A program made the translations under genes and the position numbers. The notes beneath the pieces are model-generated. The model did not search any database. It saw only the letters and a list, made by a program, of their open reading frames with translations, and had not been told where the DNA came from. Source: Candidatus Peregrinibacteria bacterium (lineage in GTDB: Bacteria; Patescibacteriota; Gracilibacteria; CAIRYL01). Taken from it: a stretch of DNA of 34,020 nucleotides. Shown here in pieces: positions 23,499-33,894 of the stretch; the first letter of the stretch is position 1; every line of letters starts with the position of its first letter. The DNA is taken from contig JACRHZ010000073.1 of assembly GCA_016220175.1 (NCBI GenBank), positions 1-34,020 on the forward strand, written 5' to 3'.

Positions 23499-23545
23499 CT
23501 TTTGAGGAGCGAAAAGACGGAGAGATTGTAGCGTATTCTCCTTCG

Positions 23546-23572
23546 GAGAGACAAGACAATGCCTTGTCTCTC
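23546..23572. repeat. Palindromic element, intergenic copy
   Basis: Arms GAGAGACAAG and CTTGTCTCTC flank a 7-base centre (ACAATGC) identical to the centre of the copy inside trpC at 25108-25136. It lies 48 bp upstream of alaS, next to a small CTCC-ttcg-GGAG hairpin. It differs from the trpCF copies in its outermost bases. Confidence 0.85.
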
Positions 23573-24228: not shown

Positions 24229-25731
24229 TTAGTTTATGAAAATTGTAAAAAGATTTTTGAGAAGCTCCTCATCCTTTCTCCCCACACTCTTCTCCACTCC
24301 CGAATTCACATCAATTCCATTCGGAAAACAGGATTTTATAATTTCTTGAACATTCTCTGGGGTAATTCCTCCAGCAACAAAGAATTTCTGACCTTCTGCG
24401 AGATATTTTGGAATTTTTTTTAATAATTCAAGCGAAATTTGTTTTCCTGTTCCGCCGCGAGATTTTTCGGAATATGCATCTAATAAAACCGCATCACAAA
24501 AAGAATATTCAGAAATTTTCTGTAAATCTGATTCATTTATGATGCGCAATGCCTTCCAAATTTTTGGTTTGTTTCGTAGAGACGCGCTATAGCGCGTCTC
24601 TACTACGAATTCACGGCAAAATTCCGGTGTTTCGTCGCCATGCAATTGAATTACATCCAGAAAATTATATTCATGTAGAGACGCGATTAATCGCGTCTCT
24701 ACGTTTAATGGATTTACAAAAACACCAACAAATTTTGGTTTTTTCATCGCGTGTTCGCGGATATTTTCGACAATTTTTCGTGCATCTTCCAATAAAATCC
24801 TCCGTGGCGATTCCTCCGCAAAAACAAACCCGAGATAATCAGCATCTTTTCCTGCCAAAATTGCATCTTCTAAATTTGTAATTCCACATATTTTCACTTC
24901 CGGTTTTCCAGAAAGATCATAAAGCGTCTTTTTTCGATCGTCTGAAGCAATAATTGCGGTACCAATCAAAATCGCATCGGCATTTTTTGCGTATTTACGA
25001 ATATCATTACGAGAAGAGATTCCACTTTCGCAGACGAAAATTTTCTCTTTTCGCATATTTTCTGGAACTTTTGAAAAAAGGTCATGAAAATTATTTAGAT
25101 TTAATTCGTAGAGACAAGACAATGCCTTGTCTCTACTATCAACATTACAATCTCGATTCACCTGTAAATTTCGATTATTCACTCCAACAATTCTCGCATC
25201 GGTATTCTTCAAAACATCGAATAATTCCTCTTCATCATGAACTTCTACAAGCGCATCCATTCCTAATTCTTGAAGAATCGATAAAAACTTTTGAATTGTT
25301 TTTGCATCAAGAACACTTCGCATGAGAAGCACGGCATCAGCCCCATATTCAGCTGCTTCGTAAATTTGTATTTCATCCAAAATAAAATCCTTTCTGAGAA
25401 TCGGAAGATTTGTAATTTCTCGAACTTTTCGAATATTCTCAATTGATCCGCCAAAAAAATTTTCATCGGTGAGAACTGAAATTGCCATAGCTCCAGAATC
25501 AGAATACAATTTCGCAAGACTTTCCACGCTATCATCCGAGCGAAAAAGCTGACCTTTTGATGGCGATTTTGGCTTTATTTCCGCAATCAGTTTTGGATAT
25601 ATCGATTCTTGAGAAAGCGCTTTGTAAAAAGCAAAATTTCTCTTTTTAAAATTCTGAGGCATCACAAAATTTTTCTTTAGTTCAAGAATTTCTTTTTTCT
25701 TGTTCTCAATGATTTCTTCTAAAATGTTCAC
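24229..25731 (-). CDS. trpCF: Fused indole-3-glycerol-phosphate synthase / phosphoribosylanthranilate isomerase with in-frame palindromic insertions
   Basis: This 500-residue bifunctional tryptophan enzyme has TrpC at about 1-270 and TrpF at about 277-500. TrpC blocks: LIAEIKPKSPSKG (48-60), LRKDFILDE (112-120), VEVHDEEEL (162-170), VGVNNRNL (182-189), CESGIS (234-239), LIGTAI (255-260). TrpF blocks: VKICGITNLEDA (279-290), FVGVFVN (334-340), QLHGDE (362-367), SRGGTGK (424-430), AGGITPEN (453-460), GIDVNSGVE (472-480). Catalytic regions look intact. Three palindromic elements (24576-24603, 24675-24702, 25108-25136) are translated in frame as parts of loops or helices at about 199-208, 344-353 and 377-386. 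The start is GTG at 25729-25731. No other trp gene is in the window. Confidence 0.93.
   Translation of the reverse strand: MNILEEIIENKKKEILELKKNFVMPQNFKKRNFAFYKALSQESIYPKLIAEIKPKSPSKGQLFRSDDSVESLAKLYSDSGAMAISVLTDENFFGGSIENIRKVREITNLPILRKDFILDEIQIYEAAEYGADAVLLMRSVLDAKTIQKFLSILQELGMDALVEVHDEEELFDVLKNTDARIVGVNNRNLQVNRDCNVDSRDKALSCLYELNLNNFHDLFSKVPENMRKEKIFVCESGISSRNDIRKYAKNADAILIGTAIIASDDRKKTLYDLSGKPEVKICGITNLEDAILAGKDADYLGFVFAEESPRRILLEDARKIVENIREHAMKKPKFVGVFVNPLNVETRLIASLHEYNFLDVIQLHGDETPEFCREFVVETRYSASLRNKPKIWKALRIINESDLQKISEYSFCDAVLLDAYSEKSRGGTGKQISLELLKKIPKYLAEGQKFFVAGGITPENVQEIIKSCFPNGIDVNSGVEKSVGRKDEELLKNLFTIFIN
24576..24603. repeat. Palindromic element 1, inside trpF
   Basis: A perfect 28-bp palindrome with half-site GTAGAGACGCGCTA. 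On the coding strand it is read as V-E-T-R-Y-S-A-S-L-R (377-386). Flanks show TTCGTA and TACGAA around it. Confidence 0.95.
24675..24702. repeat. Palindromic element 2, inside trpF
   Basis: A perfect 28-bp palindrome with half-site GTAGAGACGCGATT. It is read in the same frame as element 1, as V-E-T-R-L-I-A-S-L-H (344-353). Confidence 0.95.
25108..25136. repeat. Palindromic element 3, inside trpC
   Basis: A 29-bp near-palindrome with 11-bp arms GTAGAGACAAG and CTTGTCTCTAC and a 7-base centre. It is read in a different frame from elements 1 and 2, as S-R-D-K-A-L-S-C-L-Y (199-208). Confidence 0.93.
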
Positions 25732-28334: not shown

Positions 28335-30239
28335 TCACTTTGTCCCATTTTGAAGAAATTCTTTCCATGAGTTTGGACATTTTCCGGCTTCAAAGAGCAT
28401 TGGGTTAGTACCTCCATCATTTTGCATCTTCTCCAAATTCTCCTTTGCTTCTAGTGGAATAGAAATGCGGAAACATTTCTCACCGCTTGTATTTTCGAAT
28501 GGCTCATACACAACATTTTGCGGAAGTTTTTTGATATATATCCCTTCAAGAATATCGAGTTTCCCTTTCTCAGGAAATTTGCCCTCATCGGAGTAGTAGA
28601 GATTCAAAGTAGTATCAAGAAGAGAAATTTCAACGAGTTTTTCCGCATCTTTTGCCTTCAGTTTGGTTTCTTCAGAAGAACTTGTTTCGCTTTCGGGAAG
28701 ATTTCCTTTGTCATCACTTGTCTGAGTTACGTCATTTTTCTTTTCTGAAACAGGTACAGCTCCTTCAGGGAGAACACACTCTTTTCCATCTTTCGATCGA
28801 GCTGCTCCTTCTCTGCAGGCGAGGATGTAGGCACCTTTATAAAAGTACAAAGAGCTATTCGGTGGAATTGTAACAAGAATTTTATCTTTTCCCTCTGAAG
28901 TTCCAGGAGAAAAAATTACTTCATGATCCGGCGCATTTGCCAAAAAGAGTTCATTCTCTGGAAGCGGAAAAGAAATTTCTTCATACTCCGGAGCGGATGC
29001 GCGAATTTCTTGCTTCGTATCTCCCTGAACGACAACTGGGGCGGCTGGTTCCACCACTGCTACGGGAACGGGAACTGCAAAAAAAGTAAAGTATCCATAT
29101 ACGAGGAGGAATGTTGCGAAGCTCCCTCCGAGCGCAGGAAATAGCCTTGTCCAGAAACTTACAGGACTCAGATTATGCCCTTCTTCATGCTGAACGGGAT
29201 GATCAGAAATATGAGATTCTTGACTCTCAGTTTGTAGCTTTTGGATTTCTGCAAGTTTCCCAATTTTTTTGGAAGGTACAGGTGTTCTCTGTATTACATT
29301 TTCGATATGCGCCGGAATATTTCTGAGTTCTTCATCTGTACTTACGCTGAGAGAAGGAGCACTTTCAGGTTCTTTTGGAGTTTGGAGCTCTTCATCCGCA
29401 TTCGTTAAAGAAATGTCTTCCTCCGAATGAACCTCATCTGAAACAGCTACTTTCTTTTTTGCTTCCACATTTTTTTCAATTTTTTCCGCATACATTTTCT
29501 CTTGAACTGAAGGTTCTTTTTTGTGATCTTTCAAAGAAATCTCCTCTTCATTTTTTTGTTCTATTTTTTGTTCAGGAATGACCACCGCTTTCTCTTTTTG
29601 ATCCGGGAGAGAGTTTGCGATGACCTCTTCTGCCGAATTTACGGGAGCTTCCGTTTGTGTCTTTTCCTGAGGCGAAGTGCTTTGAAGAGCATTTTCTGGC
29701 TCTTGTTGAGATGCTTCAGGGTGTGATGCCAAATGATCTGATGATTGAGACTCCTGAGGAACTTCTCGTTCCTCTTCTTCCTGAGGATTTTCTGAATGTT
29801 GTTCTGCTGGTTTTGGCGGAGTTTTATTGAGAAGAACATCCACATCATTTTCGCCTTTGAGTTCGGATTTATCGCCGCTTTTTCGACGGCGAATAATCTC
29901 TCGAAGCGCCGTAATGGCATCTTCACTCCTGTTTTTGGAAACAACATCAAATCCAAGAGTAAACACAAGATATCCGAGCTTTTTCAGCTGTTCTCTTCTG
30001 TGAAGATTCTGATGTTTTTCTGCATCACCTCTATGACACTCTCTTTCCACTTCAATGGCAATTTTTACCTCTCCTGATTCAAAAATCATATCTGGAACGA
30101 GATATTCTGTTCCTCCTGATTCAGATATAACTCCGATCATCTTTTTTCCCTTGAGAGGAATCCCCTGCCTTTTCGCTTCTTCCCTGCACAAAGTCTCAAA
30201 ATCTTTACGATTCGAAGGAGTATTTTGTATCATATTCAT
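28335..30239 (-). CDS. Nuclease-like domain / membrane helix / pseudopilin-like domain fusion
   Basis: This protein has 634 residues. The N-terminal domain (about 10-118) resembles PD-(D/E)XK/DUF559-type nucleases: LVPDMIF with D50, IAIEVE with E63 and E65, then H69, R81 and the LKKLGYLVFTLGFDVV strand-helix pattern. A long acidic, Pro/Gln/Ser-rich segment (125-355) follows, then one membrane helix (about 366-392). The outer part (395-634) includes a region (529-600) with the DAEKLVEISLLDTTLNLYY...GKFP pattern of type II/IV pseudopilins, although the N-methylation motif is absent. The nuclease would face the cytoplasm and the pilin-like part the outside. It precedes murE and is divergent from dnaK. 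No named homologue is recognised, and catalytic competence is unproven. Confidence 0.7.
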   Translation of the reverse strand: MNMIQNTPSNRKDFETLCREEAKRQGIPLKGKKMIGVISESGGTEYLVPDMIFESGEVKIAIEVERECHRGDAEKHQNLHRREQLKKLGYLVFTLGFDVVSKNRSEDAITALREIIRRRKSGDKSELKGENDVDVLLNKTPPKPAEQHSENPQEEEEREVPQESQSSDHLASHPEASQQEPENALQSTSPQEKTQTEAPVNSAEEVIANSLPDQKEKAVVIPEQKIEQKNEEEISLKDHKKEPSVQEKMYAEKIEKNVEAKKKVAVSDEVHSEEDISLTNADEELQTPKEPESAPSLSVSTDEELRNIPAHIENVIQRTPVPSKKIGKLAEIQKLQTESQESHISDHPVQHEEGHNLSPVSFWTRLFPALGGSFATFLLVYGYFTFFAVPVPVAVVEPAAPVVVQGDTKQEIRASAPEYEEISFPLPENELFLANAPDHEVIFSPGTSEGKDKILVTIPPNSSLYFYKGAYILACREGAARSKDGKECVLPEGAVPVSEKKNDVTQTSDDKGNLPESETSSSEETKLKAKDAEKLVEISLLDTTLNLYYSDEGKFPEKGKLDILEGIYIKKLPQNVVYEPFENTSGEKCFRISIPLEAKENLEKMQNDGGTNPMLFEAGKCPNSWKEFLQNGTK

Positions 30240-30315
30240 GGGATATATATTTGTTTGAATCTTTCAGGAATCATTATAGCACAAAAAATCATGTTTTGTC
30301 TAACTCAACAGCTCA

Positions 30316-30388: not shown

Positions 30389-32380
<1,992 letters not shown>

Positions 32381-32442: not shown

Positions 32443-33342
32443 ATGCTTAAAAAGTTTTATCAATCAAAAGTTGAAGAAATAAGATTAAAATACGAAAATA
32501 TTTGTAATTTTATGGAACATAATGGCGAAAAGGGTAATGAGAACGAGCTTATTCTTATTGATTTTTTAAAAGATTTTTTACCAAAAAGTTATTCAATTGG
32601 AAGGGGTTTTATAATTGATAGTGAAGGTAATACTTCAAATCAATGTGACATTGTTATCTATGATAATTTTTATAATCCGAATTTGATAAGATTCAATAGT
32701 AATACTTACTTTCCGGTTGAAAGTGTCTACTGTGTTATTGAGGTGAAAACAACAATTAGAGATCAAGATATGAAAAAATCTTTTGATGACATGACAAAAA
32801 TTGCCAATTTAGCTTTTCATCAGGAGGACACAACTTATACAAAAGGAAATGCAGTTTGGTTCGGAAGAACAACGAGACCTAATTACTTTTTATTTGGCTA
32901 CAAGTCGGATACTAAAATAGTCGAAACTATTCTAAAAAGATTTATAAAATATCCAATTGAAACATGCTTTATCCTCAACATGGGAACCCTTAGTAAGAAT
33001 AAAAAAAAGATGCAGGACAAAAACATGGAACAAGTTAAATTTGAGATTTCTTATCTGCGAGATCTAAAAGAAGAACAAAAAAAATCCATATTAGATGCAT
33101 ACAATAATAAAAGTGATTATTTTGAGTTAAATTGCATCAAATATCCGATCATCGAATATGAAAATCAGCAATATCTGGTCGATTATGTGAAGAATTTTTT
33201 AATATTTTTGTTTTTGGTAAATTTTTATATTACAAATAAGCAGATTAGTAGGGATTATTTGAAGCATTATTTCCCATTGGATAAACTCCTAGTACTTACA
33301 AAAAATCTTGTCGCGGAAGAAGGTGTTGGCGGGACAGAGTGA
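32443..33342 (+). CDS. DUF6602-like PD-(D/E)XK nuclease-family protein
   Basis: This 299-residue protein has a putative nuclease core: an N-terminal helix with HNGEKGNENELILIDFLKDFLP, then QCDIVIYD with D69 and YCVIEVKT with E100 and K102. This D-x(n)-E-x-K pattern is diagnostic of the PD-(D/E)XK fold. Proteins of this sort occur beside restriction and anti-phage genes, but targets are unknown. The C-terminal half has a hydrophobic segment (about 254-270) that may be a buried helix. Base use is clearly more AT-rich (many TTT, AAT, ATA codons) than in dnaK next to it, a sign of transfer. It lies in the accessory right end with a GIY-YIG gene and an IS30 copy. Confidence 0.7.
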   Translation: MLKKFYQSKVEEIRLKYENICNFMEHNGEKGNENELILIDFLKDFLPKSYSIGRGFIIDSEGNTSNQCDIVIYDNFYNPNLIRFNSNTYFPVESVYCVIEVKTTIRDQDMKKSFDDMTKIANLAFHQEDTTYTKGNAVWFGRTTRPNYFLFGYKSDTKIVETILKRFIKYPIETCFILNMGTLSKNKKKMQDKNMEQVKFEISYLRDLKEEQKKSILDAYNNKSDYFELNCIKYPIIEYENQQYLVDYVKNFLIFLFLVNFYITNKQISRDYLKHYFPLDKLLVLTKNLVAEEGVGGTE

Positions 33343-33370
33343 GGACATCTGCTCCAATTCCCCACTCTTG

Positions 33371-33393
33371 TCACCCCGGACTTGATCCGGGGT
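33371..33393. repeat. REP-like palindrome A
   Basis: ACCCCGGA-cttga-TCCGGGGT (33373-33393), an 8-bp perfect stem. It overlaps the GIY-YIG 3' end. Copy B at 33751-33775 is inverted. This sequence type, GTCACCCCGGACTTGATCC, is recalled as a common bacterial palindromic repeat. Confidence 0.9.
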
Positions 33394-33715
33394 CAAGGAA
33401 TTCAGAAAAATCCCACGATTCCGCCAGATCCTTCCAAAGAGGATTTTCTTTTTCTATGAGTTCTTCTTTCCATTTTCTTCTCCATTTCTTGAGCTGCTTC
33501 TCTCGATAAATCGCATCTTCAATATATTGGTATTCTTCAAAATACAGGAGTTTTCCCACTCCGTATTTTTTTGTAAATCCGTCATTCACCTTTGTCTTGT
33601 GCTCAAACATTCTTCTTTCGAGATCATTCGTTACTCCGACATAGAGAACTGTTCTTTTTTTACTTCCCAGAATATAGACGTAATAGGTTCTCTCTTCAAA
33701 AAAATATCTGGTCAT
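33371..33715 (-). CDS. GIY-YIG nuclease family protein
   Basis: From ATG at 33715 the product has 114 residues, a single GIY-YIG domain: YYVYILGSKK corresponds to the first strand (GIY variant YVYIL), VLYVGVTNDLERRMFEH to the YIG strand with catalytic-type Arg, and EDAIYREKQLKKWRRKWKEELI to the helix with the conserved Glu. Such small UPF0213-like proteins are widespread, with poorly known roles. A TTG at 33763 inside the palindrome would extend the frame but is unlikely. The last eight residues (LDPGSSPG) and the TGA are encoded by the palindrome at 33371-33393. An inverted palindrome lies just upstream. Confidence 0.82.
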   Translation of the reverse strand: MTRYFFEERTYYVYILGSKKRTVLYVGVTNDLERRMFEHKTKVNDGFTKKYGVGKLLYFEEYQYIEDAIYREKQLKKWRRKWKEELIEKENPLWKDLAESWDFSEFLDPGSSPG

Positions 33716-33750
33716 ATCAGACGGAATATATACACTGAAGAGTATACGTT

Positions 33751-33775
33751 GATCCCGGATCAAGTCCGGGGTGAC
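33751..33775. repeat. REP-like palindrome B (inverted)
   Basis: ATCCCGGA-tcaag-TCCGGGGT, 8-bp stem with one G-U pair, in opposite orientation to copy A, about 36 bases upstream of the GIY-YIG start. Confidence 0.9.
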
Positions 33776-33894
33776 AAAAAAAGAAGAGTTCGAATTCCCT
33801 CAACAACAAAAGAAAAAATCCGGATTCGATTCTGTCGTCGGACCTCGTCGACACATTTTGGCTTCCAAAAAAAGGAAAAATCGTACATTCTAAA

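Follow-up and report, generated by a model that had tools for sequence, protein, structure and literature searches.

The window analysed here, the whole 34,020-nucleotide stretch of contig JACRHZ010000073.1 from an ultra-small Candidatus Peregrinibacteria bacterium (class Gracilibacteria), carries on its reverse strand an open reading frame for a protein that joins a DUF559/Vsr-like N-terminal domain to a type IV pilin head (Table 1). The frame lies where an earlier sequence-only reading had placed it, and the fusion which that reading described, of a PD-(D/E)XK-like N-terminal region with a pilin-like C-terminal region, is confirmed, both domains being supported by profile scores against shuffled sequences (see below).

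Table 1. Features of the fusion gene and its product, in window coordinates.
Feature	Coordinates	Strand	Remarks
Whole gene	28335..30239	(-)	634 aa; start ATG, stop TGA
Promoter-like site	30273..30302	(-)	TAGACA-18-TATAAT, with TG extension
Residues 1-123	29871..30239	(-)	Divergent DUF559/Vsr-like PD-(D/E)XK domain
Codon D50	30090..30092	(-)	Candidate metal-binding Asp at the Vsr D51 position (one-residue alignment uncertainty)
Codon E63	30051..30053	(-)	Invariant with DUF559
Codon H69	30033..30035	(-)	Invariant with DUF559
Residues 124-366	29142..29870	(-)	Acidic low-complexity linker (53 D/E, 27 K/R)
Residues about 369-391	29067..29135	(-)	Single predicted membrane span (hydropathy)
Residues 401-523	28671..29039	(-)	Outer linker with Cys pair C475, C488
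Residues 524-634	28338..28670	(-)	Type IV pilin head, DGG...E.G motif, Cys pair C589/C621

The gene is followed on the same strand by a Mur ligase gene and has a divergent dnaK upstream. An extended sigma-70-like promoter match (11/12) is located 34 nt 5' of its ATG, and its GC content by codon position is typical of the neighbouring genes and uniform along its length; on these two grounds the gene looks resident and could be expressed. A perfect CIRCE (HrcA) element is found upstream of dnaK (30403-30429), and none of 100 shuffles contained one.

No orthologue was found among 353 genomes of the class, 379 of the phylum and 99 relatives, searched with the full-length protein as well as with its domains, nor in two genome-contig scans, a viral-contig scan, phages and plasmids. 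The other six members of the family that have genomes all lack the gene (0/6), and the synteny around dnaK in six relatives revealed no counterpart, the dnaK region being different where it was read. The fusion is real and unusual, and is known from one genome only.

Several other features were observed in the window. At 33368-33777, 34-nt inverted repeats (TTGTCACCCCGGACTTGATCCGGGGTCAAGG...) flank a GIY-YIG open reading frame, and since both frame and repeats recur at another place in the genome (L175, 7780-8214), the whole looks like a mobile unit of roughly 410 bp. A trpC-trpF fusion gene (24229-25731) contains in-frame perfect palindromes of the form GTAGAGACGCG(ATTAAT or CTATAG)CGCGTCTCTAC, located near 24577-24602 and 24676-24701, as well as another palindromic repeat (25105-25134) that is common to 23542-23571. 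The DUF6602 gene at 32443-33342 has a GC content clearly below that of its neighbours and was possibly acquired.

A DUF559/Vsr-like domain at the N-terminus

The assignment of the N-terminal region to a divergent DUF559/Vsr-like PD-(D/E)XK domain is supported by a profile of 20 DUF559 domains from the class, which scored it at 20.4 bits, compared with 10.2 bits for the best of 5000 shuffles. In Pfam the region matched DUF559 (PF04480, E 0.028) and MTES_1575 (E 0.056), both of which are REase-type families and both with scores below the gathering cut-off. NCBIfam returned only matches to unrelated families far below their cut-offs, and neither PADLOC nor PHROGs gave a match for the window protein. 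In published work DUF559 counts among the Vsr-like PD-(D/E)XK domains, and the DUF559 protein VsrA of Caulobacter was shown to cause, in vivo, the SOS response that a methyltransferase mutant displays (PMC12907096).

When class and phylum were searched with the single domain sequence, DUF559 proteins came up mixed with spurious matches, the top match being L004 in the class (DUF559-like by motif) and L098 in the phylum (DUF559-like by Pfam). The weak matches L005, L007-L011, L099-L101 and L104 were judged to be chance, several having interrupted frames and the translated ones being unrelated; the DUF559 match of L065 comes from the C-terminal portion of a long protein without such a layout, and a PDB sequence match (E 4.9e-6) to 8etq, a designed repeat protein, was treated as chance too. 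In relatives, DUF559-like domains also occur in frame within other genes, one riboflavin-synthase-like (L004, 25-2187) and one for a RarA-like ATPase (L006, 1117-1773), both gene names being given by eye.

Over nine aligned proteins, the window domain and DUF559 share the invariant columns D50, F53, E63 and H69. When aligned with 33 DUF559 domains from viral contigs, the window domain keeps E63, H69 and R81, has E65 where DUF559 has Asp, and shows D50 offset by one column. The active-site D, E and H of the DUF559/Vsr branch of PD-(D/E)XK are present as D50 (with this one-residue shift), E63 and H69, the Vsr residues used for the D50 comparison being those of PMC11879112. The full near-invariant set of DUF559 is not found in the domain: D78, G66 and R94 are replaced by N78, R66 and T94, and the helix-1 Glu has no confident placement, pairing with R11 in the 33-domain alignment and with E21 in the phmmer pairing. 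With D78, G66 and R94 changed, catalysis by this domain is not assured. In addition, FASTKD4, a protein whose cavity is Vsr-like, reportedly binds RNA but does not cut it (PMC11879112), so that a kept fold is no guarantee of activity.

A structural model built with the 33 viral-contig DUF559 domains as alignment rows (pLDDT 85.8, pTM 0.75) displayed the nuclease core fold proposed in the sequence-only reading, its best matches including 3hrl (Z 12.2), I-Bth0305I (Z 10.6) and Vsr (Z 9.3); Bax1 was also among them, and nucleases of the fold lead at Z 9.0-12.2. Because the DUF559 rows bias the model, this match indicates consistency and is no independent proof. Without these rows the single sequence modelled poorly (pLDDT 51.4), its helices and strands coming in a compatible order, and a fold search with that model was meaningless at pLDDT 51.

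The pilin head and proteins of the same layout

The C-terminal domain scored 47.0 bits with a profile of five true pilins from which the window row was left out (best of 5000 shuffles, 8.3 bits), and residues 524-627 are 40% identical to the type IV pilin that this genome encodes, the match taking in the DGG...E.G end. What had been read as a pseudopilin-like region at residues 529-600 stands as a pilin head; its limits move to about 524-627, and a prepilin signal is absent. The N-terminus is the soluble DUF559-like domain and the sole hydrophobic span lies at about residues 369-391, so that we have to do with a membrane protein carrying a pilin head and not with a pilin. Its sequence shows two domains, a linker and a single span. 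The orientation is most naturally read with the pilin head exposed outside and the N-terminal domain within the cell. The four cysteines that follow the span (C475, C488, C589, C621) could make two disulfides.

When the pilin-head alignment was used to search the class, long proteins bearing such heads came to light. At nine loci a short TPR-like N-terminus (a label given by eye, with no TPR match in Pfam) is followed by a low-complexity linker, a single span, another linker and then the pilin head, and proteins of this layout are present in other families of the class. A pilT-type gene is located at most three genes away in five of the eight neighbourhoods read; three of these five genes are T2SSE ATPases by Pfam and two were called by sequence. 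In L022, a relative's protein, a zinc ribbon takes the place of the TPR-like unit and is followed by the span and the pilin head. Given the nine TPR-like loci and this zinc-ribbon relative, the window protein follows a plan that recurs with varying inner modules, and it looks like a nuclease-headed version of the span and pilin-head design. The pilin-head search found no TPR-like pilin-head protein in the window genome, and no description of stalked pilin-head membrane proteins was found in the literature searched.

At the recurring locus represented by L163-L170, a gene for about 300 aa, a gene for about 190 aa and a TPR-like/TM/pilin-head gene are found together, often with dus-like and pilT genes, and one of the genes for about 300 aa has a weak FtsQ-type POTRA match.

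Possible role at the pilus and comparison with known systems

In this genome the type IV pilin gene adjoins PilB- and PilC-type genes, and comEC has a PilT-like ATPase gene as its immediate neighbour. Across the patescibacteria group, ComEC and pilus genes occur widely (PMC6744442), and in one cultured patescibacterium comEC is required for transformation (PMC10633639). The presence of the pilus genes and of the comEC-pilT pair makes action at DNA entry the leading, if unproven, role. The window gene is itself unlinked to com or pilus genes, being located between the Mur ligase gene and dnaK with comEC and the pilus genes on other contigs, and a link of its product to DNA uptake is possible. 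The coupling of surface DNA capture to uptake or defence that was proposed from the sequence alone therefore survives in part: it is favoured by the pilus genes and by ComEC next to a PilT-like ATPase, but not by the gene's neighbours or by PADLOC. As to the nucleic-acid scavenging called upon as its support, com genes were dispensable for growth in a Tn-seq screen of Saccharibacteria (PMC10633639), which argues against nucleotide scavenging there.

The reading that we prefer, with a probability of roughly 0.4, is that of a membrane-spanning, pilus-associated adaptor with an inner Vsr-like nuclease domain. The pilin head, on its stalk outside the cell, would touch the type IV pilus or its incoming cargo, while the long disordered linker inside the cell would bear the Vsr-like domain, which would act on or bind DNA near the membrane; both the contact with the pilus and the nicking or cutting of DNA by the inner domain at the entry site (ComEC) are steps that we infer. 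The adaptor reading draws on the recurrence in the class of pilin heads on non-pilin membrane proteins, several of them beside pilT, and is weakened by the lack of linkage to pilus or com genes, the lack of a known orthologue and the lost DUF559 positions.

These lost positions, together with the FASTKD4 precedent and the inner domains of the same-layout counterparts, which show no enzyme signs, also suit a Vsr-like domain that is catalytically dead and binds nucleic acid or protein only, in which case the protein would be a pilus-to-interior tether or signal adaptor like its TPR-headed counterparts; the retention of D50, E63, E65 and H69 speaks against this alternative, which we consider tentative though a serious one. 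It is unlikely that the protein is by itself a receptor-nuclease, in which an outer pilus-like head senses or captures DNA or phage at the pilus and positions or switches the inner Vsr-like nuclease on entering DNA, and which would represent one variant within a modular class of stalk proteins with pilin heads. Pili are common phage receptors, and the topology and the nuclease-like inner domain would befit a sensor whose outer head binds a pilus-specific phage and whose inner nuclease attacks the injected DNA, but such a sensor is improbable, with no defence-gene neighbours recognised, no match in PADLOC and nothing comparable in phages, plasmids or viral contigs. Finally, an origin of the fusion as an assembly chimera or through gene decay, without joint function, as its single known copy might suggest, is very hard to reconcile with 634 open codons, a promoter, uniform codon-position GC and the occurrence of this layout in other proteins of the class.

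If the preferred adaptor reading is real, one chain links a surface pilus-type domain to an intracellular nucleic-acid enzyme. The protein also draws attention to a larger set of membrane proteins that bear pilin heads on stalks in these bacteria, several of them encoded beside pilT, which could be examined for a part in retracting the pilus, in DNA entry or in host-cell contact.

Compared with known systems, the inner domain shares its core fold and the D...ExD/E...H pattern with DUF559/Vsr-like endonucleases (VsrA of Caulobacter, E. coli Vsr, I-Bth0305I), which also provide its best solved-structure matches. It differs from DUF559 in falling below the Pfam cut-off and in several altered family positions, and from these endonucleases in being joined to a membrane span and pilin head; many DUF559 matches of the class occur in open frames that, unlike that of the window protein, are short (about 100-200 aa). 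The C-terminal head, DGG...E.G end included, resembles those of type IV pilins and GspG-like pseudopilins, but the protein has neither a prepilin signal nor the FTLIELL helix, and its head is borne on a stalk some 130 residues past a separate membrane span. With the TPR-like - linker - TM - pilin-head proteins it shares the order of parts and the kind of C-terminal head, their inner domain being a short helical unit where the window protein has a nuclease fold. L022 is similar in having a small inner domain, one span and an outer pilin head, and differs in its zinc-ribbon inner domain, its large extra outer region and its weaker, partial pilin-head match.
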